Origin: Xylophilus sp. GW821-FHT01B05
GTDB taxonomy: Bacteria > Pseudomonadota > Gammaproteobacteria > Burkholderiales > Burkholderiaceae_C
Reading direction: 5' to 3'
Assembly (NCBI GenBank): GCA_038961845.1
Contig: CP152408.1
Span: 4,216,001 to 4,280,000, forward strand
Length of the DNA: 64,000 nucleotides
Shown here: piece by piece, positions 4,773 through 54,474 of the stretch
How positions within the stretch are numbered: the first letter of the stretch is position 1
Layout: each line of letters begins with the position of its first letter
Translations under genes and position numbers: made by a program
Notes under the pieces: generated by a model
Database searches by the model: none
What the model was told of the DNA's origin: nothing
The model's input: only the letters and a program-made list of their open reading frames with translations

Positions 4773-5390
4773 TCAAACGCCCGACGCGCGGCCCAGCCCC
4801 AACTTCTCCATGGCCTCGTGTGCCTCCACCACCATCGTCGCCACTTCGGCCACGGTCACGCGCAAGGCCGTGGCGCGCGAGCGCATGTGCTCGTAGGCCT
4901 TGCTCTCCGACAGGTTCTGCGTTTCAGTGAGCAGGCGCACCGCCTTCTCGATCTGCCGGCGCGAGCGGATGGTGTCTTCCAGCTTGTTCACCTTGCTCTG
5001 CAACCGCTCCTGATAGCCGCGCGACGAGCGCGCCAGCACCAGAGTACTCAGCACGCCCGACGAACGAAACGGCCGTGTGATGACGCCGTGGGCGCTGGTG
5101 TCGAGCAGCAGCTTCAGGGTCGTCGGACTCTCGTAGTCCGACAGCGCCACAAGCGTGGCTTCGACCGCGCTGGCGCTCCAGCTTGCGCTGCCCTGCAGCT
5201 CCTGCGACACCTGGAAGAAGATCACGTCACAGCCCGTCGGTGGCTCAGCCGGGAACGGCCAGATCACCTTGAGGCGGCAGCCGATGCGCTTGAGCTGGTC
5301 GAGCAGCACGTCCCGGTCTTCGCCCGGCGGGTACACCACCGCAACGCAGATGCTGCGAAGGTCGTCGTAGAGGCGGCGCAGGCTGCTCAT
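4773..5390 (-). CDS. amiR: AmiR-like ANTAR-domain transcription antiterminator
   Basis: The 205-residue protein has an N-terminal receiver-like domain without the usual phosphorylation pattern (about residues 10-125), a predicted coiled coil (about 128-150) and a C-terminal ANTAR domain (about 145-200, with RRQIEKAVRLLTE and the conserved Ala-rich helices). AmiR proteins bind leader RNA and prevent termination; AmiC holds them inactive until an amide is bound (known for the Pseudomonas ami operon). It starts four bases after amiC and is the last gene of the operon. Its likely target is the leader terminator at 13039-13086, so the operon should be positively autoregulated. Confidence 0.88.
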   Translation of the reverse strand: MSSLRRLYDDLRSICVAVVYPPGEDRDVLLDQLKRIGCRLKVIWPFPAEPPTGCDVIFFQVSQELQGSASWSASAVEATLVALSDYESPTTLKLLLDTSAHGVITRPFRSSGVLSTLVLARSSRGYQERLQSKVNKLEDTIRSRRQIEKAVRLLTETQNLSESKAYEHMRSRATALRVTVAEVATMVVEAHEAMEKLGLGRASGV

Positions 5391-5394
5391 CCTG

Positions 5395-6558
5395 TCAGCT
5401 CAGCCAGAAGTCGGAGAAACCGAAGGTCGACAGGTAGGGGTCAGGCTTCACCGGCTCCGCGCCCTGCCACACGATATCGAACTGCCCATCGGCGCGGCAC
5501 ACGCCGATGCGCGGGGTCAGCATGCAGTGGTTGTTTTCGGGATCGACCGAGAGCGGGCCTTCGGGCGACTCGAAACGCACGCTGTGCGAGGCCTTCACCA
5601 GCTTGCGCGTGTCCAGGCTGCCGGTGCGCTCCAGCGTGCGCGCGAACAGGTGTACCTGGCTGTACGCCATCTCCGACCAGGTGCTGGTGGGCCGGTCGCC
5701 GAAACGCGCGCGCCAGCGCTCGACGAAGCGTGCATTGCTCGCGTTCTGCAGCGAGCCGAAATACGTTGCGGCCGTAATGTGGCCTTCGCAGATACCGGCA
5801 CCGGTGAGGCGCACTTCCTCCTCGGCCATCGACAGGCTTGCGATCGGCATGCGCGCCGGGTCCAGGCCGTGCTCGCGGTAGATCTGATAAAAGCGCCGCG
5901 CCGACTCGCCCACCATGGTGGAGAACACCACGTCAGGCTGCGCTGCCACGATGTCGCGTATCACCTCTTGCAGTTCGGGCTCGGTGGCTTCGAGCGGCAG
6001 GTAGATCTCGTCGAGAATCTCGCCGCCGTGCTGCTCCACCATCTCTCGCATGACGCGGTTGGATTCGCGCGGATAGATGTAGTCCGCCCCCAGCAGGAAG
6101 AAGCGCGTGCCCCGGTTCTTCAGCAGGTAGGCCGCAAGCTGTGCACTGTTCTGGTTGGGCACGGCGCCGGTATAGATCACGTTGGGCGAATATTCGAAGC
6201 CTTCGTAGAACGAGCAATACCAGAGCAAGGCGTTGCTGCGCTCGATCACCGGCAGCACGGCTTTGCGGCTCGACGAGCGCGAGCAGCCGAACACCACGTT
6301 GACTTCGTCTTCGAGCAGCAGCCGCGTGGCCAGCCGGCGGTATTCGCCAGAGTCGCCTTTTGGATCGTAGGCGATGGGCAGCAGCGGCCGGTCGAGTACG
6401 CCGCCCAGGCTGTTGATCTCCTCGATCGCCAGCGCCGTGCCAAAGAAGTGCTCCGACTCGGTCACGCCCGTGGCGCCTGAGCGCGAGTACAGCACGCCAA
6501 TGCGCCAGCCGTCTTCGGCAGAGGTATCTGTGTCAGTGACCATCGGCGTGTCCTTCAT
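5395..6558 (-). CDS. amiC: AmiC-like amide sensor (periplasmic-binding fold, cytoplasmic)
   Basis: The 387-residue protein follows Pseudomonas AmiC closely along its length, including the YEGFEYSPNVIYTGAVPNQ region, DYIYPRESN and a PDPY segment near the end. It has no signal peptide, as expected for a cytoplasmic sensor that captures AmiR. The ATG at 6556-6558 overlaps the asparaginase stop (ATGA), which decides the start; an inner ATG at 6541-6543 is possible. It shares a SFYEG motif with the operon's exported binding protein, so sensor and transporter may recognise the same ligand (inference). The exact amide is unknown. Confidence 0.88.
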   Translation of the reverse strand: MKDTPMVTDTDTSAEDGWRIGVLYSRSGATGVTESEHFFGTALAIEEINSLGGVLDRPLLPIAYDPKGDSGEYRRLATRLLLEDEVNVVFGCSRSSSRKAVLPVIERSNALLWYCSFYEGFEYSPNVIYTGAVPNQNSAQLAAYLLKNRGTRFFLLGADYIYPRESNRVMREMVEQHGGEILDEIYLPLEATEPELQEVIRDIVAAQPDVVFSTMVGESARRFYQIYREHGLDPARMPIASLSMAEEEVRLTGAGICEGHITAATYFGSLQNASNARFVERWRARFGDRPTSTWSEMAYSQVHLFARTLERTGSLDTRKLVKASHSVRFESPEGPLSVDPENNHCMLTPRIGVCRADGQFDIVWQGAEPVKPDPYLSTFGFSDFWLS

Positions 6559-7538
6559 CGGTCGAACAGGGTTTGCAGAGAGAGCGCGTCGCGATCCTCC
6601 TGCAGTGCCAGTATGAGCAGGATACGTGCCTTCTGCGGGCTCAGATTGTCGGCAAAGACCGCGCCCGCGTCCTTGAGCGTACTCCCGCCGCCGACAAAAC
6701 CGTAGCTGGGGCGCACGCGGCCGTTGGGTACGCGGGTCGATATCACCACCGCAACGCCATGGGTGATGGCCCATTCAATGGCCTCGAACATCGCGGTGTT
6801 GACGTTGCCCAGGCCCAGTGCCTGTACCACGATGCCGCGCGCGCCCTGCGCCACGGCGGCGCGCAACATCGCGCCGCTGGCACCGCCGTACATGGCAACG
6901 ATTTCGATCGGGGGCAGAACGCCACCGCGCAACGGCAGATGCTGACGCCGCAGGGGCGAGCGCGAGAACACCACGCGGTCATCGTCGATTGAACCGAGCA
7001 GGCCGAAATCGCCTGACTTGAATGACTCGACATCGGCCGTATGGGTCTTGCTGACTTCGCGCGCAGCGTGGATCTGGTTGTTCATCGCAACCATCACGCC
7101 GCGGCCTCGTGCCTCGGGCGCAAGGCAGACGCGCACAGCATTACGCAGGTTGCGCGGGCCATCGAAATCCGACGCCGAAGCGTTGCGCTGCGCACCGGCC
7201 AGCACCACGGGCTTGACGGCGTCCAGCGTCAAGTCAAGGAACCAGGCCGCCTCCTCCAGCGTGTCGGTGCCGTGCGAGACGATCACGCCGGCCACGTCGT
7301 CACGCGCGAGCGCAGTCTTGACGGCACAGTTCAACAGCGCCCAGTCGTCAGGGCCCATGTGATCCGAGGGCTTGTTGCAGAGATCGATCACCTCCAGCCG
7401 TGCCAACTCGGCAAGGCCTGGCACCACGGCCAGCAGGTCTTCGCCCGACAGGGCCGGCAGAGGCACCTGGCGCACCGGATCGATCTTCATCGCGATGGTG
7501 CCGCCGGTGGCGATAAGCACACAGGTGGGTAGCGTCAT
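6555..7538 (-). CDS. L-asparaginase/glutaminase-type amidohydrolase
   Basis: The 327-residue enzyme hydrolyses asparagine or a related amide to acid and ammonia. Both catalytic signatures are present: TGGTIA at residues 11-16 and HGTDT at 89-93, with the Ser-Asp pair of NKPSDH near 58-59. It resembles the type II family but lacks a signal peptide, so it should act in the cytoplasm. It overlaps livF upstream and amiC downstream by four bases each (ATGA), placing it firmly inside the amide-inducible operon. Its true substrate may be the product or substrate of the nitrilase-family enzyme rather than asparagine. Confidence 0.88.
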   Translation of the reverse strand: MTLPTCVLIATGGTIAMKIDPVRQVPLPALSGEDLLAVVPGLAELARLEVIDLCNKPSDHMGPDDWALLNCAVKTALARDDVAGVIVSHGTDTLEEAAWFLDLTLDAVKPVVLAGAQRNASASDFDGPRNLRNAVRVCLAPEARGRGVMVAMNNQIHAAREVSKTHTADVESFKSGDFGLLGSIDDDRVVFSRSPLRRQHLPLRGGVLPPIEIVAMYGGASGAMLRAAVAQGARGIVVQALGLGNVNTAMFEAIEWAITHGVAVVISTRVPNGRVRPSYGFVGGGSTLKDAGAVFADNLSPQKARILLILALQEDRDALSLQTLFDR

Positions 7539-46070: not shown

Positions 46071-47324
46071 ATGAAATCAGGACTGAACTTCTTAGCCGCA
46101 GCCAAGCAGTGCGAAATCCGCGAGCTTGAGCAGCTCACACTGACCAGCGAGCTGGTGCAGCGCACCGGGGAACTGGTGCATGCGCTGCAGAAGGAGCGCG
46201 GCCTTTGCAACCTTTACCTGGGCTCGGGCGGCGCGCAATTTGGCGCGCTGCGGCGCCAGCAGACGGCGCAGTGCCTGCAGGTGGAGAGCGACCTGCACGG
46301 CGCCTTCGACCGGCTGGATACCGATGGCGCGCGCATTGGCAACGGTGCGCGGCTGTTCAGCCGCATGGCCTATGTGCTGCATGGGCTGGAGGCGCTACCC
46401 GCACTGCGCGAACGCATAGAGGCGCGCAGCCTGACGCCGGCCGAGGCCACGCAGGCCTTCGTCAAACTGGTCGCCGGGCTGCTGGCCGTAGTCTTTGAGG
46501 CGGCCGATAGCGCCACCGACCCGGAGATTTCACGCCTGCTGGTGGCGATGTTCCATTTCATGCAGGGCAAGGAGTTCTCGGGCCAGGAGCGTGCCACCGG
46601 CGCCGCTGCCTTCACCAGCGGCCAGACCGAGGCTGCGCGCCAGCAGCAATGGCTGCACCTGATCGACTCGCAAGAGCGCTGCTTCAAGGTGTTTACCGAC
46701 TTTGCCGAGGCCGGCCCGGTGGCGCTGTGGCGGCATTGCCAGGCCGGTGCCGCACTGGCCGAGCTGGAGCGGCTGCGGCGCGTGGCCTGCACCGCGCCGG
46801 TGGGCAGCACGCTGGACCGCGCGCTGGGCCAGGTGTGGTTCGACTGCTGCACCGAGCGCATCGACGCGATGCAGGCGGTAGAGGCGCGCCTGGCGGCCGA
46901 CCTGCTGGCGCTGTGCGAGCGCAAGATCAGCCAGGCGCACATCGACCTGCAGGCCTACCAGGTGCTGCTGGACACGGCGCCCGCCACCGGCCTGCCGCCG
47001 GGCGCTTTCTTTGATGCCCCGGCCACCGATGGCCAGGTGCCGGCGCTGGGCCCGCACCTGGAGCGCTCGGTGCTGGAGATGGTGCAAGAGCAGTCGCACC
47101 GGCTGCAGGCCATGGGCGACGAGCTGGCCACCGTGCGCGCCACGCTCAACGAGCGCAAGCTGGTCGAGCGCGCCAAGGGCGTGCTGATGGCGCACCGCCA
47201 GCTCAGCGAGGAAGACGCCTACAAGATGCTGCGCCAGACCGCCATGAGCCAGAGCCGCCGGCTGGTGGACGTGGCCGAGGCGGTGCTGTCCATGGCCGAC
47301 TTCCTGCCGACCCGGCCGCGCTGA
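46071..47324 (+). CDS. nasR: NasR-type nitrate/nitrite sensor and ANTAR antiterminator
   Basis: The 417-residue protein has an N-terminal nitrate- and nitrite-sensing (NIT) domain (about residues 30-300; QKERGLCNLYLGSGG is the family's start) and a C-terminal ANTAR domain (about 345-408; LNERKLVERAKGVLMAHRQLSEEDAY). In Klebsiella NasR frees the nas leader from termination when nitrate or nitrite binds. Two leaders in this window, at 47448-47550 and 51881-51974, carry matching two-hairpin targets. The first lies directly downstream of this gene. It is divergent from tsaD with only a 71-base spacer. Confidence 0.92.
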   Translation: MKSGLNFLAAAKQCEIRELEQLTLTSELVQRTGELVHALQKERGLCNLYLGSGGAQFGALRRQQTAQCLQVESDLHGAFDRLDTDGARIGNGARLFSRMAYVLHGLEALPALRERIEARSLTPAEATQAFVKLVAGLLAVVFEAADSATDPEISRLLVAMFHFMQGKEFSGQERATGAAAFTSGQTEAARQQQWLHLIDSQERCFKVFTDFAEAGPVALWRHCQAGAALAELERLRRVACTAPVGSTLDRALGQVWFDCCTERIDAMQAVEARLAADLLALCERKISQAHIDLQAYQVLLDTAPATGLPPGAFFDAPATDGQVPALGPHLERSVLEMVQEQSHRLQAMGDELATVRATLNERKLVERAKGVLMAHRQLSEEDAYKMLRQTAMSQSRRLVDVAEAVLSMADFLPTRPR

Positions 47325-47417: not shown

Positions 47418-47433
47418 TGGCACGCTTCCTGCG
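47418..47433 (+). promoter_or_regulatory. Sigma54 promoter of the nrt operon
   Basis: TGGCACGCTTCCTGCG matches the -24/-12 pattern TGGCACG-N4-TTGC, with GG and GC ten bases apart. Transcription should start around 47443-47446, directly before the first ANTAR hairpin. Confidence 0.75.
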
Positions 47434-47447
47434 TTAGCTCTAGCGAT

Positions 47448-47507
47448 ACCGGGCCAATGGCGGTCTGGTTCACGGTTAACCCCACGATTTCTGGACAACG
47501 GCGTCCA
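47448..47507 (+). promoter_or_regulatory. NasR (ANTAR) target RNA in the nrt leader
   Basis: Hairpin P1 (47448-47469) has an 8-bp stem with two GU pairs and loop AAUGGC. Hairpin P2 (47492-47507) has stem UGGAC/GUCCA and loop AACGGC. Both loops are six bases with A at position 1 and G at position 4, the ANTAR consensus. P2 uses bases of the terminator's 5' arm, so the two structures exclude each other. Confidence 0.85.
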
Positions 47508-47550
47508 TTCCCCGCTTGCACGTGCGTGCATGGGGAATGGACGCCGTTTT
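47497..47550 (+). terminator. Leader terminator (attenuator) of the nrt operon
   Basis: A 17-bp perfect stem (47497-47513 with 47532-47548) encloses an 18-base loop that pairs further, and ends in GTTTT. It stands 45 bases before nrtA and should stop transcription unless NasR stabilises P2. Confidence 0.85.
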
Positions 47551-47594: not shown

Positions 47595-48881
47595 ATGGCG
47601 CAATCCCCCACCGCAAGCCCCGTCCCCTCGCAGCCGGCCGCCACGCCGGCAGACGCGTCGCGCCGCGACTTCGTGCGCAAGGGCGCCGCCTTGGGCACGG
47701 CCACGCTGTTCTCCACGCTGGGCCACCACGGCGTGTGGGCTGCGGGCTCGGACAAGCCGGAGAAGGAAGAGGTCAAGATCGGCTTCATCCCGCTGACCGA
47801 CTGCGCCAGCGTGGTGATGGCCTCGGTGCTGGGCATCGACAAGAAGTACGGCGTGAAGATCATCCCCAGCAAGGAAGCCAGCTGGCCCGGCGTGCGCGAC
47901 AAGCTGGTCAATGGCGAGCTGGACCTGGCCCACGTGCTGTACGGCCTGGTCTACGGCGTGCACCTGGGCGTGAGCGGCCCGAAGAAGGACATGGCCGTGC
48001 TGATGAACCTGAACCAGAACGGCCAGGCCATCACGCTGTCGAAGAAGCTGGCCGACAAGGGCGCGGTGGACGGCCCATCGCTGGCCAAGCTGATGGCCAC
48101 CGACAAGCGCGAATACACCTTTGCCCAGACCTTCCCCACCGGCACGCACGCGATGTGGCTGTACTACTGGATGGCGACCTACGGCATCAACCCGCTGAAG
48201 GACAGCAAGATCATCACCGTGCCGCCGCCGCAGATGGTGGCCAACATGCGCATTGGCAACATGGACGGCTACTGCGTGGGCGAGCCCTGGGGCCACCGCG
48301 CCATCATGGACGGCATCGGCATCACCGGTGTGACCACGCAGGACATCTGGAAGGACCACCCCGAGAAGGTGCTGGGCACCACGGCCGAGTTCGTCAAGAA
48401 GTACCCCAACACCTCGCGCGCGGTAACGGCGGCCATCCTGGAGGCCGGCCAGTGGATTGACGCCAGCCTGTCCAACAAGCTGAAGATGGCCGACACCATT
48501 GCCGACAAGTCCTACGTGAACACCAGCGTGGACGCGATCAACCAGCGCATCCTGGGCCGCTACCAGAACGGCCTGGGCAAGACCTGGGACGACCCCAATT
48601 ACATGAAGTTCTACAACGACGGCACGGCCAACTTCCCGTACCTGTCGGACGGCATGTGGTTCCTGACGCAGCACAAGCGCTGGGGCTTGCTGAAAGAGCA
48701 CCCCAACTACCTGGCCGTGGCCCAGCAGATCAACCAGATCGGGCTGTTCAAGGACGCTGCCGCCGCCAGCAAGACGGCTGTGCCCAAAGAGACGATGCGC
48801 ACCAGCAAGCTGATCGACGGCACGGTCTGGGACGGCAAGGACCCGGCCAAGTACGCCGACAGTTTCAAGATCCACGCCTAG
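47595..48881 (+). CDS. nrtA: Nitrate ABC transporter substrate-binding protein
   Basis: The 428-residue protein binds nitrate (or nitrite) in the periplasm. A twin-arginine signal, SRRDFVRKGAALGTATL, lies near residues 20-36, so it is probably exported folded by Tat. The body has NrtA/NasF features: KIGFIPLTDCASVVMA and GYCVGEPWGHRA. GGAG precedes the ATG at 47595-47597. A longer open frame upstream would include the leader terminator and is rejected. First gene of nrtABD. Confidence 0.92.
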   Translation: MAQSPTASPVPSQPAATPADASRRDFVRKGAALGTATLFSTLGHHGVWAAGSDKPEKEEVKIGFIPLTDCASVVMASVLGIDKKYGVKIIPSKEASWPGVRDKLVNGELDLAHVLYGLVYGVHLGVSGPKKDMAVLMNLNQNGQAITLSKKLADKGAVDGPSLAKLMATDKREYTFAQTFPTGTHAMWLYYWMATYGINPLKDSKIITVPPPQMVANMRIGNMDGYCVGEPWGHRAIMDGIGITGVTTQDIWKDHPEKVLGTTAEFVKKYPNTSRAVTAAILEAGQWIDASLSNKLKMADTIADKSYVNTSVDAINQRILGRYQNGLGKTWDDPNYMKFYNDGTANFPYLSDGMWFLTQHKRWGLLKEHPNYLAVAQQINQIGLFKDAAAASKTAVPKETMRTSKLIDGTVWDGKDPAKYADSFKIHA

Positions 48882-48890
48882 GAGCTCGCC

Positions 48891-49832
48891 ATGGTCAGCG
48901 CGGTATTCCATCCCCCGTACCCCGACGCCGCGCCGACTGCGGCAAGCACTCCCAAAACAATAGCTACAAGCCCAGACACAGCAATGGCTACAGCCGTTAT
49001 TTCCTCTGAAAACCCCGCGCCTGCAGCGCGCCCCGGCCGCCCCAACCGCGATTGGCGCGGGCTTTGGCTGCGGGTGCTGCCGCCCTTCTTTGGCCTGGGC
49101 CTGCTGGTGGCGGTGTGGGAGCTGGTGTCGGTACTGACCGCTGCCAGCATTCCCTCGCCGCGCGACACCTGGGCGCAGGCGGTGGACGTGTTCAGCAACC
49201 CCTTCTATAGCAACGGCCCGAACGACCAGGGCGTGGGCTGGAACGTGCTGTCATCGCTCAAGCGCGTGGCCATGGGCTTCGGGCTGGCGGCGGTAGTCGG
49301 CATTCCGGCGGGCTTCCTGATCGGGCGCTTTACCTTCTTGTCGCGCATGTTCAACCCGCTGATCAGCCTGCTGCGGCCGGTGTCGCCGCTGGCCTGGCTG
49401 CCGATCGGGCTGCTGGTGTTCAAGGGCGCCAACCCGGCGGCGATCTGGACCATCTTCATCTGCTCGATCTGGCCCATGATCATCAACACCGCCGTGGGTG
49501 TGCAGCGCGTGCCGCAGGACTACATGAACGTGGCCCGCGTGCTGAACCTGTCAGAGCTCAAGATCATGACCAAGATCCTGTTCCCCGCCGTGCTGCCCTA
49601 CATGCTGACCGGCGTGCGCCTGGCGGTGGGCACGGCCTGGCTGGTGATCGTCGCGGCCGAGATGCTCACCGGCGGCGTGGGCATTGGCTTCTGGGTCTGG
49701 GACGAGTGGAACAACCTCAACGTCAAGAACATCATCATCGCCATCTTCGTGATCGGCATCGTCGGCCTGCTGCTGGAGATGGCGCTGATCAAGCTGGCCA
49801 CCGCGTTCACGTATGAAGAGGTGAAGTCATGA
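48891..49832 (+). CDS. nrtB: Nitrate ABC transporter permease
   Basis: The 313-residue protein has about six membrane segments and the binding-protein-dependent permease motif in VGVQRVPQDYMNVARVLNLSELKIMTKILFPAVLPYML. The N-terminal 45 residues are a Ser/Thr/Ala/Pro-rich tail, part of which (about residues 22-40) is encoded by a dispersed palindromic repeat. It starts nine bases after nrtA with GGAG and overlaps the ATPase gene. Confidence 0.92.
   Translation: MVSAVFHPPYPDAAPTAASTPKTIATSPDTAMATAVISSENPAPAARPGRPNRDWRGLWLRVLPPFFGLGLLVAVWELVSVLTAASIPSPRDTWAQAVDVFSNPFYSNGPNDQGVGWNVLSSLKRVAMGFGLAAVVGIPAGFLIGRFTFLSRMFNPLISLLRPVSPLAWLPIGLLVFKGANPAAIWTIFICSIWPMIINTAVGVQRVPQDYMNVARVLNLSELKIMTKILFPAVLPYMLTGVRLAVGTAWLVIVAAEMLTGGVGIGFWVWDEWNNLNVKNIIIAIFVIGIVGLLLEMALIKLATAFTYEEVKS
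48954..49010 (+). repeat. Dispersed palindromic repeat, copy 7, inside nrtB
   Basis: AACAATAGCTAC, AAGCCCAG, CAATGGCTAC, TTATTTCCTCTGAA in family order. It is in frame near the 5' end of nrtB and codes for part of its extra N-terminal tail. Confidence 0.55.
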
Positions 49833-50641
49833 GTTCCACTGGTTCAAAGTTCATCGAAGTCCAGAACGTCGAGCAGACCTTCCGCACGCCCAAGGGCAGC
49901 TTCCCGGCGCTGCGCGACATCCAGCTGACCGTGGCCAAGGGCGAATTCATTGCGCTGATCGGCCACTCGGGCTGCGGCAAGTCCACGCTGCTGAACCTGC
50001 TGGCTGGCCTGACCACGCCCACCGCCGGCACGCTGATCTGCGCCAACCGCGAGATCAAGGGCCCTGGCCCCGAGCGCGCGGTGGTGTTCCAGAACCATTC
50101 GCTGCTGCCCTGGCTGACCTGCTTTGAGAACGTCTACCTGGCAGTGGAGCGGGTGTTCTCGGCCACCGAATCCAAGGCACAGCTCAAGGCCCGCACCGAA
50201 GCCGCGCTGGCGCTGGTGGGCCTGGTCGCCGCCGCGCAAAAGCGCCCCGGCGAAATCTCCGGCGGCATGAAGCAGCGCGTGGGCATTGCCCGCGCCCTGT
50301 CGATGGAGCCGCAGGTGCTGCTGATGGACGAGCCCTTTGGCGCACTAGACGCCCTCACCCGCGCCAAGCTGCAGGACGAGCTGCTGGCCATCGTCGCCAA
50401 GACCCACAGCACCGTGGTCATGGTGACCCACGACGTGGACGAGGCGGTGCTGCTGTCCGACCGCATCGTGATGATGACCAATGGGCCCGCCGCCACCATT
50501 GGCGAGATCCTGACGGTAGACCTGCCACGCCCGCGCAGCCGCGTGACGCTGGCCGAAGACCCGCGCTACCTGCAGGCGCGCAAGGCGGTGATCGACTTCC
50601 TCTACACGCGGCAGGCGCATGTGGAGAAGACCGCGGCCTGA
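49829..50641 (+). CDS. nrtD: Nitrate ABC transporter ATP-binding protein
   Basis: The 270-residue ATPase has Walker A GHSGCGKST (about residues 45-53), signature ISGGMKQRVGIARAL and Walker B VLLMDEPFGALD. It has a single ATPase domain, as in NrtD, without the extra binding-protein-like domain of cyanobacterial NrtC. It overlaps nrtB by four bases and ends the operon; a terminator follows at 50748. Confidence 0.9.
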   Translation: MSSTGSKFIEVQNVEQTFRTPKGSFPALRDIQLTVAKGEFIALIGHSGCGKSTLLNLLAGLTTPTAGTLICANREIKGPGPERAVVFQNHSLLPWLTCFENVYLAVERVFSATESKAQLKARTEAALALVGLVAAAQKRPGEISGGMKQRVGIARALSMEPQVLLMDEPFGALDALTRAKLQDELLAIVAKTHSTVVMVTHDVDEAVLLSDRIVMMTNGPAATIGEILTVDLPRPRSRVTLAEDPRYLQARKAVIDFLYTRQAHVEKTAA

Positions 50642-51777: not shown

Positions 51778-51846
51778 AGGGCAAGCAACCACTGAGGCCA
51801 CGCGCCCCACTCCAGCGAAAACCCGCGCCCATCGGGCTTGTTTCAC

Positions 51847-51862
51847 TGGCACAACTTTTGCA
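51847..51862 (+). promoter_or_regulatory. Sigma54 promoter of the nirBD-nasA operon
   Basis: TGGCACAACTTTTGCA is an almost perfect -24/-12 element (TGGCAC-N5-TTGCA; GG and GC ten bases apart). The predicted start near 51873 leaves eight bases before the first ANTAR hairpin. Confidence 0.88.
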
Positions 51863-51880
51863 TGACTGCCCGCATGGGTT

Positions 51881-51925
51881 TCCCGCTGCAATGGCGCGGT
51901 GGGAAGCCCCAGGACAAAGGCGTCC
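51881..51925 (+). promoter_or_regulatory. NasR (ANTAR) target RNA in the nir leader
   Basis: P1 (51881-51904) has a 9-bp stem with two GU pairs and loop AAUGGC, identical to the nrt P1 loop. P2 (51912-51925) has stem GGAC/GUCC and loop AAAGGC, again A1 and G4. The P2 3' strand is part of the terminator's 5' arm. Confidence 0.87.
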
Positions 51926-51974
51926 GCATGCCGCACCGGCTTTTAGCTGGTGTTGGGACATGCGGACGCCTTTT
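51916..51974 (+). terminator. Leader terminator (attenuator) of the nir operon
   Basis: A 15-bp perfect stem (51916-51930 with 51959-51973) holds an inner CACCGGC/GCTGGTG hairpin and runs into TTTT. It stands 34 bases before nirB. Confidence 0.85.
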
Positions 51975-52008
51975 CTCGTTTCTGGATGCCCCCACGGAGA
52001 AAACCGCC

Positions 52009-54474
52009 ATGGACATGCGCGTGAAAAAGCAAAAGCTGGTGCTGATCGGCAACGGAATGGCCGGCGTGCGCACGCTCGAAGAACTGCTCAAGATCGACCC
52101 GGACCTGTACGACATCACCGTCTTCGGTGCCGAGCCGCATCCCAACTACAACCGCATCCTGCTGTCGCCGGTGCTGGCGGGCGAGCAGACAGTGGACGAG
52201 ATCATCCTCAACCCCTGGAGCTGGTACGAAGAGAACCACATCACGCTGCACACCGGCAAGAAGGTGGTCGAGGTGGACCGCGTGCGCCGCACCGTGCGTA
52301 CCGACGACGGCACCGAGGCGCCCTACGACCGCCTGCTGCTGTGCACCGGCTCCAACCCCTTCATGCTGCCGGTGCCGGGCAAAGACCTGGCTGGCGTGAT
52401 CGCCTACCGCGACATTGCCGACACCAACGCCATGATCGAGACCGCCAAGACGCACAAGCATGCGGTGGTGATCGGCGGCGGCCTGCTGGGCCTGGAGGCC
52501 GCCAACGGCCTGATGCTGCGCGGCATGAGCGTGACCGTGGTGCATGTGGGCGACTGGCTGATGGAGCGCCAGTTGGACGACGTGGCCGGCGGCATGCTGC
52601 GCAAGTCGCTGGAGGAGCGCGGCCTGAAGTTTCTGCTCAAGGCGCATACGCAAGAGCTGCTGGGCAATGCCGAGGGCCGCGTGCAGGCCGTGCGCTTCAA
52701 GGACGGCAGCGAGGTGCCGGCCGACCTGGTGGTGATGGCCGTGGGCATACGCCCCAACGTAGAGCTGGCCGAGAAGATGCGCCTGCACTGCAACCGCGGC
52801 ATCGTCGTCACCGACACCTTGCAGACCGTGACTGACGCGCGCATCTATTCAGTGGGCGAATGCGCGGCGCACCGTGGCATTGCCTACGGCCTGGTAGCGC
52901 CCTTGTTCGAGCAGGCCAAGGTGGCGGCCAACCACCTGGCGCAGATGGGCATTGGCCGCTACCTGGGCTCGCTCACCTCGACCAAGCTCAAGGTCACCGG
53001 CATCGACCTGTTCAGCGCCGGCGACTTCATGGGCGGCGAAGGCACGGAAGAGATCGTCATGAGCGACCCCTTCGGCGGCGTCTACAAGAAGCTGGTGATC
53101 AAGGACGACAAGCTGGTGGGCGCCTGCCTGTATGGCGACACGGTGGACGGCAGCTGGTACTTCAAGCTGCTGCGCGACGGCCGCAGCGTGCACGACATCC
53201 GCGACAAGCTGATGTTTGGCGAATCCAACCTGGGCGACGCCGGCCACCAGGGCCAGAGCAAGGCCGCCGCCATGGCCGACACGGACGAGGTCTGCGGCTG
53301 CAACGGCGTGACCAAGGGCACGATCTGCAAGGCCATTCAAGAGAAAGGCCTGTTCACGCTGGACGAGGTGAAAAAGCACACCAAGGCCAGCGCCAGCTGC
53401 GGCTCTTGCACCGGGCTGGTGGAGCAGATCCTGATGTTCACCGCCGGTGGCGACTACTCCGCCACGCCCAAGAAGAAAGCGCTGTGCGGCTGCACCGACC
53501 ACAGCCACCAGGAGGTGCGCGACGCCATCCGCACCCAGCACCTGACCAAGATCGCAGACGTCTACACCACGCTTGGATGGAAGACGCCCAATGGCTGCGC
53601 CACCTGCCGCCCGGCGCTCAACTACTACCTGATCAGCACCTGGCCCAAAGAGGCGCAGGACGACCCGCAGAGCCGCTTCATCAACGAGCGCAGCCACGCC
53701 AATATCCAGAAAGACGGCACCTACTCCGTCATCCCGCGCATGTGGGGCGGCACCACCACGCCGGCCGACCTGCGCCGCATCGCCGACGTGGCCGACAAAT
53801 ACGCCATCCCCACCGTCAAGGTCACGGGCGGCCAGCGCATCGACCTGCTGGGCGTGAAGAAGGAAGACCTGCAGGCCGTCTGGAAAGACCTGGACATGCC
53901 CAGCGGCTTTGCCTATGCCAAGTCGCTGCGCACGGTAAAGACCTGCGTCGGCAGCGAGTGGTGCCGCTTTGGCACGCAAGACAGCACGCAGATGGGCAAG
54001 GACCTGGAGCGCGCGCTGTGGGCCATGTACGCGCCGCACAAGGTCAAGCTCGCCGTCAGCGGCTGCCCGCGCAACTGCGCGGAATCCGGCATCAAGGACG
54101 TCGGCATCATCGGCGTCGATTCGGGCTGGGAGATTTATGTCGGCGGCAACGGCGGCATCAAGACCGAGGTGGCGCACTTCTTCGTCAAGGTGAAGACGGC
54201 CGAAGAGGTGATGGAGTACGCAGGCGCCTTCCTGCAGCTCTACCGCGAAGAGGGCTGGTACCTGGAGCGCACCGTGCACTACATCGGCCGCGTGGGCCTG
54301 GACTACGTGAAGAAGAAGGTCCTGGAAGACGAAGCCGGCCGCAAGGCGCTGTGGGAGCGGCTGCAGTTCTCGCTCGACGGCGCGCCAGACCCTTGGCTGG
54401 AGTCGTCCAGGGCCTCGGTCGATACGCGCCAATTCACGCCGGTGATCCCTATTGCGGTCGCTGCCCACGCCTGA
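52009..54474 (+). CDS. nirB: Assimilatory nitrite reductase (NADH), large subunit
   Basis: The 821-residue enzyme reduces nitrite to ammonium. It has an FAD/NAD(P) domain (about residues 8-300), a BFD-type [2Fe-2S] region (CGCNGVTKGTIC...CGSC, about 425-465), a second Cys-rich segment near 490-540, and a sulfite/nitrite reductase domain with Cys646, Cys652, Cys686 and Cys690 binding the [4Fe-4S]-sirohaem centre. GGAG precedes the ATG at 52009-52011. A longer frame upstream runs through the leader terminator and is rejected. Confidence 0.95.
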   Translation: MDMRVKKQKLVLIGNGMAGVRTLEELLKIDPDLYDITVFGAEPHPNYNRILLSPVLAGEQTVDEIILNPWSWYEENHITLHTGKKVVEVDRVRRTVRTDDGTEAPYDRLLLCTGSNPFMLPVPGKDLAGVIAYRDIADTNAMIETAKTHKHAVVIGGGLLGLEAANGLMLRGMSVTVVHVGDWLMERQLDDVAGGMLRKSLEERGLKFLLKAHTQELLGNAEGRVQAVRFKDGSEVPADLVVMAVGIRPNVELAEKMRLHCNRGIVVTDTLQTVTDARIYSVGECAAHRGIAYGLVAPLFEQAKVAANHLAQMGIGRYLGSLTSTKLKVTGIDLFSAGDFMGGEGTEEIVMSDPFGGVYKKLVIKDDKLVGACLYGDTVDGSWYFKLLRDGRSVHDIRDKLMFGESNLGDAGHQGQSKAAAMADTDEVCGCNGVTKGTICKAIQEKGLFTLDEVKKHTKASASCGSCTGLVEQILMFTAGGDYSATPKKKALCGCTDHSHQEVRDAIRTQHLTKIADVYTTLGWKTPNGCATCRPALNYYLISTWPKEAQDDPQSRFINERSHANIQKDGTYSVIPRMWGGTTTPADLRRIADVADKYAIPTVKVTGGQRIDLLGVKKEDLQAVWKDLDMPSGFAYAKSLRTVKTCVGSEWCRFGTQDSTQMGKDLERALWAMYAPHKVKLAVSGCPRNCAESGIKDVGIIGVDSGWEIYVGGNGGIKTEVAHFFVKVKTAEEVMEYAGAFLQLYREEGWYLERTVHYIGRVGLDYVKKKVLEDEAGRKALWERLQFSLDGAPDPWLESSRASVDTRQFTPVIPIAVAAHA

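Follow-up and report, generated by a model that had tools for sequence, protein, structure and literature searches.

The leader upstream of nirB in Xylophilus sp. GW821-FHT01B05 is, in all probability, an ANTAR attenuator of the dual-hexaloop type controlled by NasR, with the leader of the nearby nrtABC genes as a second target of the same protein. Both leaders lie in the 64,000-nt stretch of DNA that was analysed (the window), which corresponds to positions 4216001-4280000 of a 5.83-Mb genome assembled as one contig. The computed evidence for this assignment comprises the anatomy of the leaders, the exclusion between the second hairpin (P2) and the terminator, the conservation and covariation of the first hairpin (P1), the finding that these two are the only strong leaders of the genome, and the existence of a single regulator that combines NIT and ANTAR domains. 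The same leader design is common upstream of nitrate genes in related bacteria. If the assignment is true, one nitrate-sensing RNA-binding protein ties together the nitrate uptake and the nitrate reduction of this genome via two matching leaders.

The gene order in this part of the window is nasR, the nrt leader, nrtABC, a phosphomethylpyrimidine-kinase-like gene, the nir leader, nirB, a Rieske nirD-like gene, and a nasA-like molybdopterin oxidoreductase gene. The nasR gene (46071-47324, forward strand) encodes a NIT nitrate/nitrite sensor domain and an ANTAR RNA-binding domain (Pfam, 1.2e-53 and 7.6e-20, respectively); residues 6-409 of its product can be aligned to 4akk, a nitrate regulatory protein of solved structure and a distant relative (E 4.2e-54). 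A search of NCBIfam returned no name for the product. The closest named relative found, Xylophilus sp. ASV27, has a NasR that is 90% identical. The nrtABC-like genes for a nitrate ABC transporter (47595-50641, forward strand) encode a binding protein, a permease, and an ATPase (Pfam NMT1_2, BPD_transp_1, and ABC_tran), and nirB (52009-54474, forward strand) encodes the large subunit of an assimilatory nitrite reductase (Pfam NIR_SIR, NIR_SIR_ferr, Pyr_redox_2, and Fer2_BFD, on the frame 51838-54474). The genome encodes three ANTAR proteins, of which only NasR has a NIT nitrate-sensing domain; the other two are AmiR-type and are encoded beside AmiC-type binding proteins. One of these AmiR/AmiC pairs is located near TRAP transporter genes within the window (4773-6774, reverse strand), and the second, which is accompanied by an amidase gene, is found elsewhere in the genome (locus L024, 7278-10562).

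The nir leader begins with a sigma54 -24/-12 element, TGGCAC-AACTT-TTGC (51847-51861, forward strand). The preliminary description had called this element near-perfect; it is in fact perfect, and it is the only perfect TGGCAC-N5-TTGC found by motif scan in the whole window. Matches with at most one mismatch number 7 in the window against 10.1 expected, which is chance level, and the promoter call for nirB thus rests on position and conservation, a sigma54 element also preceding the related leaders, rather than on the motif alone. The genome contains a sigma54 gene, whose product carries the Sigma54_DBD domain, and together with the perfect element this makes a predicted promoter from which the leader RNA would start at about 51872. 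All of the following elements are on the forward strand. P1 (51876-51909) consists of 14 pairs around the hexaloop AATGGC (51890-51895) and is supported by sequence, folding, and stem covariation in relatives, whereas P2 (51912-51925), with the stem GGAC/GTCC and the hexaloop AAAGGC (51916-51921), is read from sequence and folding, as is the intrinsic terminator (51916-51973), in which 15 perfect outer pairs (51916-51930 with 51959-51973) are followed by a T-rich tract reaching to about 51980. The two loops and the 15-bp terminator are thus exactly as first described; the 7-nt linker that had been given for P1 and P2 is not, since the linker measures 2 nt if P1 is counted at its full 14 bp and 8 nt if it is counted at 8 bp, and 7 nt would need a P1 of 9 bp.

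The 15-bp arm of the nir terminator starts at the P2 loop, so that the loop and 3' arm of P2 double as the foot of the terminator, and P2 and the terminator are therefore mutually exclusive. The predicted folds agree with this arrangement: the full leader folds as P1 plus terminator (z -8.1, with 0 of 200 shuffles as good), and the fragment 51870-51934, which ends before the 3' arm of the terminator, folds as P1 plus P2 (z -2.5, 5 of 200 shuffles as good).

The nrt leader (47418-47548, forward strand) shares this layout, as had been proposed, and its P1 loop is identical to that of the nir leader. It comprises a sigma54-like element found by motif scan, TGGCACGCTTCCTGC (47418-47432, 9 of 10 specified bases); a P1 of 8 pairs (47448-47469) with the loop AATGGC at 47456-47461; a P1-P2 linker (47470-47492) of 22-23 nt, in keeping with the 22 nt originally stated; a P2 (47493-47506) with the stem GGAC/GTCC and the loop AACGGC; and a terminator (47497-47548) with 17 perfect outer pairs (47497-47513 with 47532-47548), the arm of which starts at the P2 loop, like that of the nir terminator. 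P1, P2, and the terminator are again supported by sequence and folding. The whole nrt leader is more stable than its shuffles (z -4.7, 0 of 200 as good), and its P1-P2 fragment, taken by itself, does not surpass the shuffles in stability (z -0.1, with 90 of 200 as good). All four hexaloops of the two leaders have A at position 1 and G at position 4, which is the ANTAR consensus, and both hairpins of each leader are closed by a C:G pair.

For the working of the two leaders, we infer that NasR binds the leader RNA, that this binding responds to nitrate and permits read-through, and that NtrC controls transcription. The sigma54 promoter of nirBD-nasA would fire under nitrogen limitation, presumably through NtrC. 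In the absence of nitrate or nitrite, formation of P1 in the leader RNA would be followed by that of the strong terminator, ending transcription before nirB. NasR would bind nitrate or nitrite through its NIT domain and hold the A1/G4 hexaloops of both hairpins with its ANTAR domain; the closed P2 would then withhold its loop and 3' arm from the terminator, allowing the polymerase to read through into nirB. With the nrtABC leader as a second target of NasR, nitrate uptake and nitrate reduction would be switched together. One protein of the genome scores above the NtrC cut-off, and NtrC-like inverted repeats with a best score of at least 9 of 10 were found upstream of the leaders in 21 of 47 regions against 4.1 expected; at the two leaders of the window, the best scores are only 8, a value that 27.5 of 47 shuffles reach, and no NtrC site is claimed there.

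Attenuators of this kind are already known. ANTAR-responsive two-hairpin attenuators at nitrogen genes, including nitrite reductase, were widely predicted in 2012 (as described in PMC3369931), and NasR of Klebsiella is reported to bind the two-hairpin P1P2 RNA only when nitrate or nitrite is present (PMC7496416). By the accounts in these two sources, the Klebsiella oxytoca nasF/NasR system resembles the present one in having a NIT-ANTAR regulator, a nitrate operon, and a leader with two A1/G4 hexaloop hairpins, a terminal C:G pair, and a terminator overlapping P2 (PMC7496416; PMC3369931). In contrast to K. oxytoca nasF, the window contains two transcription units (nrtABC and nirBD-nasA), each with its own leader.

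Related leaders were collected with a P2 search pattern of 14 bases, GGACAANGGCGTCC, which is present in 156 of 299 genomes of the family and twice in the Xylophilus genome, at the nir and nrt leaders; since the reversed pattern, used as a control, also occurs in many genomes of this set, the number 156 carries no weight on its own. Among the matches listed, 30 loci and 100 further regions were hand-picked rather than drawn at random, and at 113 of the 130 sites so chosen a sigma54 element (8 or more matching bases of 10, with GG and GC fixed) is combined with a downstream match to the window's NrtA, NrtC, NirB, or NasA. Together with the window and the named loci, the sampled places yielded 147 instances of the pattern, 130 of which have a sigma54 element and a nitrate-assimilation gene; the other 17 (14 with neither feature and 3 with the promoter only) were dropped before counting. 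P2 is fixed by the search pattern, so its invariance among the collected leaders is by construction. P1, for its part, was found in 118 of the 130 leaders, whereas 50 sets of mononucleotide shuffles of the upstream 70 nt yielded 1.9 on average and never more than 7. The scan requires A1 and G4 and gives credit for A2, G5, C6, and closure by C-G without demanding them, in the control as well; these leaders are not independent, as several come from one genus and named and other genomes may belong to the same species. The 118 P1 loops have A2 throughout, G5 in 104 cases, and C6 in 110, and a C-G pair closes 117 of them. The scored scan detected no P1 in 12 of the 130 leaders, three of which (L009, L082, and L094) show one with a mismatch. 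Thus the related leaders keep both loop and stem, whereas the loss of both was the outcome that the preliminary description had set as its refutation. Two Comamonas loci (L015 at 13676 and L016 at 13764) have additional leaders 3.3 kb beyond their nrt leaders, in which the P1 loop, read by eye, is AACGAT or AACGGT above a G.G stem mismatch and resembles the consensus loop of the Rfam family P11.

The pairing of P1 was examined in these leaders by locating the loop from its letters alone (AANGGC nearest to P2) and ignoring pairing, which gave 95 distinct stems from the 130 leaders. Counting from the loop, pairs 1 to 8 are formed in 93, 91, 92, 79, 79, 81, 67, and 67 of the 95 stems, respectively, against shuffled-partner means of 89, 50, 43, 38, 41, 42, 35, and 35; pair 1 is uninformative because it is nearly invariant. 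The stems make use of G-C, C-G, A-T, T-A, and wobble pairs. In a structural alignment (A2) that holds 33 of 93 distinct candidates and was limited in advance to sequences with a stem, 85 cells are changed on both sides of a pair, as compared with 31.9 in shuffles (0 of 500 as high) and at most 37 in slid structures, although the number of pairs with any both-side change (6) is not above that of the shuffles. The alignment of related leaders that had been suggested as a check therefore bears out the claim that P1 pairing is kept by compensatory change. The GU wobble pairs described at positions 3 and 5 from the loop are indeed present in both leaders of the window, but their supposed conservation does not extend to relatives: only 4 of the 95 distinct stems have GU at both positions, 2 of these being the window's own, and the close relative ASV27 (L004) has G-C at position 3 of the nrt stem and at position 5 of the nir stem. 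The wobble pairs were accordingly rejected as a conserved feature and look like coincidence.

The length of the linker between P1 and P2 was found to be accompanied by a difference in folding. When linkers are classed by the distance from the P1 loop to P2, folding at or below -2 kcal/mol is seen in 0 of 51 distinct linkers at up to 28 nt, in 1 of 18 at 29-34 nt, in 23 of 28 at 35-42 nt, and in all 13 above 42 nt. Because longer sequences fold more by chance, the comparison with shuffles matters here, and in neither of the two longer classes do any of 300 dinucleotide shuffles reach a summed energy as low (z -6.1 and -9.0, respectively), the class above 42 nt being less clean in that a few of its very long linkers (L026 and L040, for example, by eye) contain a nearer A-N-N-G hexaloop that may be the true P1. 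By linker length, 0 of 25 linkers of 13-17 nt fold, as compared with 25 of 31 at 18-28 nt and 12 of 12 above 28 nt, such that linkers of at least 18 nt usually form a third hairpin (37 of 43). When each of the 43 is compared with its own shuffles, 19 fold better at the 0.05 level and 24 do not. A MAFFT alignment of 26 long-linker leaders analysed with RNAalifold gave no shared linker hairpin; the third hairpin varies in place and sequence between lineages, and the case for it thus rests on single-sequence folding against shuffles instead of column-wise covariation. The nrt linker of the window is an exception among long linkers, as it hardly folds (-0.4 kcal/mol).

To our knowledge, no sigma54 promoter precedes the eut leaders of Enterococcus faecalis. 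Those leaders and their regulator EutV follow the same dual-hexaloop antiterminator logic, and by the published accounts their linkers measure 5-12 nt and longer ones fail or are much reduced in activity (PMC3369931; PMC8934654): a 14-nt linker drastically lowered EutV activity in vivo (PMC3369931), and 20 added linker nucleotides abolished it in vitro (PMC8934654). Set against this range, the nir linker has 2 or 8 nt, depending on how the stem is defined, and the nrt linker, at 22-23 nt, lies outside, while linkers in the collected leaders reach 20-40 nt and then usually fold. A spacer hairpin in the long linkers would reconcile them with the EutV limit. Unfolded linkers of 13-17 nt are frequent, and the spacing limit therefore looks looser here than for EutV. 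A literature search on ANTAR hairpins and linkers showed no three-hairpin form among the papers listed, which is weak evidence of absence.

The regulators that serve these leaders evidently differ between genomes. NasR was detected at E <= 1e-20 in 21 of 73 genomes searched, and among 56 hand-picked genomes an ANTAR hit occurs in 35 of 36 with the P2 pattern versus 13 of 20 without it (2 of these hits being weak). Among 21 leader-bearing genomes that lack NasR, 18 have an ANTAR gene on the same strand within 1 kb upstream of the P2 match; the exceptions are G027, a draft in which no ANTAR gene was found, and G030 and G052, in which it lies elsewhere. Three such proteins (L176, L162, and L165) combine an ANTAR domain with a response-regulator-like N-terminus, and it is this N-terminus that scores above the Pfam cut-off in L176 and below it in the other two. 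We take these three to be NasT-like. Among the genomes whose nrt leader was read, the third base of the P2 loop of this leader is a pyrimidine in all 11 that have NasR and in which no NasT-like gene was seen, including G053 with its weak second ANTAR hit; it is a purine in 19 of the 20 that lack NasR, G030 being the exception. In this count the nrt leader of G027 is labelled by its NrtC match. The count omits G039 (which has a purine, NasR, and another ANTAR gene close to the leader), G085 (with a leader of the nir type only), G052 and G079 (in which nrtA was not matched), and G024, G025, G044, G058, G070, G071, G073, and G077. The nir leaders of the window and of three genomes of the same genus (G020, G148, and G232) have A at this position, so the base is not a strict code for NasR, and the pattern may be explained by lineage. 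With more than 100 members, the leaders form a natural data set on which loop and stem positions are free, on the hairpin spacing allowed for the reading of RNA by ANTAR proteins, and on the passage of one leader family between NasR and a NasT-like protein.

Several other explanations of the nir leader can be weighed against control by NasR. A chance origin was rejected on the folding relative to shuffles, the recurrence of P1, and its covariation. The same observations bear on the idea that the leader is nothing more than a sigma54 promoter of the usual sort with a constitutive terminator or attenuator behind it and incidental hexaloops, an idea to which the strength of the nir terminator on its own and the chance-level frequency of sigma54 motifs with at most one mismatch in the window lend some credit; yet P1 plays no role in the terminator and nevertheless recurs, as an A-A-N-G hexaloop on a covarying stem, closed by C-G in 117 of 118 cases, in 118 of 130 leaders where about 2 would be expected, and we strongly disfavour this explanation as barely credible. 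It is also very improbable, if slightly less so, that an AmiR-type ANTAR protein, or several ANTAR proteins jointly, rather than NasR alone act on the nirB attenuator. Two AmiR-type proteins are encoded in the genome and could in principle bind the leaders too, and relatives evidently use an ANTAR protein of another class on the same leader, as judged from the 18 of 21 NasR-less genomes with an ANTAR gene just upstream. The AmiR-type genes, however, adjoin genes for AmiC-type binding proteins and, in one case, an amidase gene, and the same-genus genomes G020, G148, and G232 yielded one ANTAR hit each, which is NasR (72-90% identity), and yet contain both leaders: each has two exact P2 matches, nrt-type and nir-type by leader sequence. 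A covariance model built on alignment A2 finds two leaders in each of these three genomes and in the Xylophilus genome at E <= 2e-6, with the next hits at E >= 0.08, although 3 of these 8 leaders match by construction, as the alignment contained the window's two and a leader identical to the nir leader of G148; the other five do not. These findings support the proposal of two targets of one NasR, and the nir leader is most likely worked by the NasR encoded nearby.

A further possibility is that the terminated leader RNA, besides its role in cis, also acts as a small RNA in trans, as for Pseudomonas P11. The nir leader aligns along its length to the P11 model (RF00625) with 30.5 bits (E 2e-5; 27.5 bits on a slightly shifted stretch), and a study of worm behaviour describes P11 as regulating the nitrogen assimilation operon of strain PA14 (PMC12080996). 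This score nevertheless falls far short of the gathering threshold of 70, and the biology described comes from another species; we regard an additional trans role as unlikely. The match of the nrt leader to P11 is weak (22.5 bits, E 0.0024) and likewise below gathering. For the nir leader itself, control in cis by NasR remains our reading, and one of its closest counterparts is the Pseudomonas nirBD leader NalA (Romeo 2012), which is reported to have a sigma54 promoter, a terminator-bearing leader, and relief by an ANTAR protein (PMC12830290; PMC3973561). The regulator named in these sources is NasS-NasT, in contrast to the window, where it would be NasR and the other two ANTAR proteins of the genome are AmiR-type. 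Judging from the P11 model, NalA and P11 may well be one RNA.

At the gathering threshold, Rfam detects only a tRNA in the window. The narK RNA model (RF03032) matches the two leaders of the window with 27.5 and 26.7 bits (E 0.001 and 0.0015), below its gathering threshold of 43.2, and the same small searches also gave matches of up to 22.9 bits (E 0.023-0.75) to unrelated models of microRNAs and other hairpins, so that the nir-P11 match and both narK matches stand out more by their letters than by score. Like the leaders of the window, the P11 and narK RNA models have sigma54 boxes, a P1 hexaloop (CAACGAUG / AACGGC), and the P2 motif; Rfam types the former as gene and the latter as cis-regulator, and ANTAR is absent from their names and types. 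The narK RNA reportedly stems from work by Weinberg and colleagues in 2017. With strict filters, narK RNA was found at E <= 0.001 in 12 of 274 genomes of the class, two of the hits being above the cut-off, and the Xylophilus genome is not among the 12. Eight of the 13 hits, including both strong ones, have a sigma54 element, and P1, P2, and a terminator can be read in them by eye (L191-L196, L201, and L203); at the other five (L197-L200 and L202), the promoter filter found no promoter. The frames behind the eight we take to be NarK-like (L191), NrtA-like (L193, L194, and L196), NasA-like (L195), and porin-like (L201 and L203), that of L192 being unclear. An ANTAR protein is encoded in 11 of the 12 genomes with a narK hit, as compared with 4 of 14 hand-picked genomes without one.

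These observations suggest that narK RNA and P11, two Rfam entries, represent one sigma54-ANTAR design, and if the membership of narK RNA in this leader family is true, it gains a mechanism. Neither narK RNA nor RF03032 appeared among the papers listed by our full-text literature search, and a link between narK RNA and ANTAR may have been made before. Relative to the known kind of attenuator, what is less expected here is the spacer hairpin, together with the exchange of regulators. We lean, with some reserve, towards a joint reading in which the three-hairpin form, the exchange between NasR and a NasT-like regulator, and the inclusion of narK RNA and P11 in the same leader family all hold; in its first part, a linker of about 18 nt or more would fold into a spacer that restores a short distance between the hexaloops, and evolution would thereby obey the EutV constraint. 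The same-genus genome G020 has a probable third leader (L213, about 1450-1600) that shows, by eye, a sigma54-like element, a P2 (AGAC-AAAGGC-GTCT), and a terminator, along with a P1 that has a G.G mismatch and the loop AACGAA and a covariance-model E of only 0.087; the gene behind it reads, in our view, like NarK.
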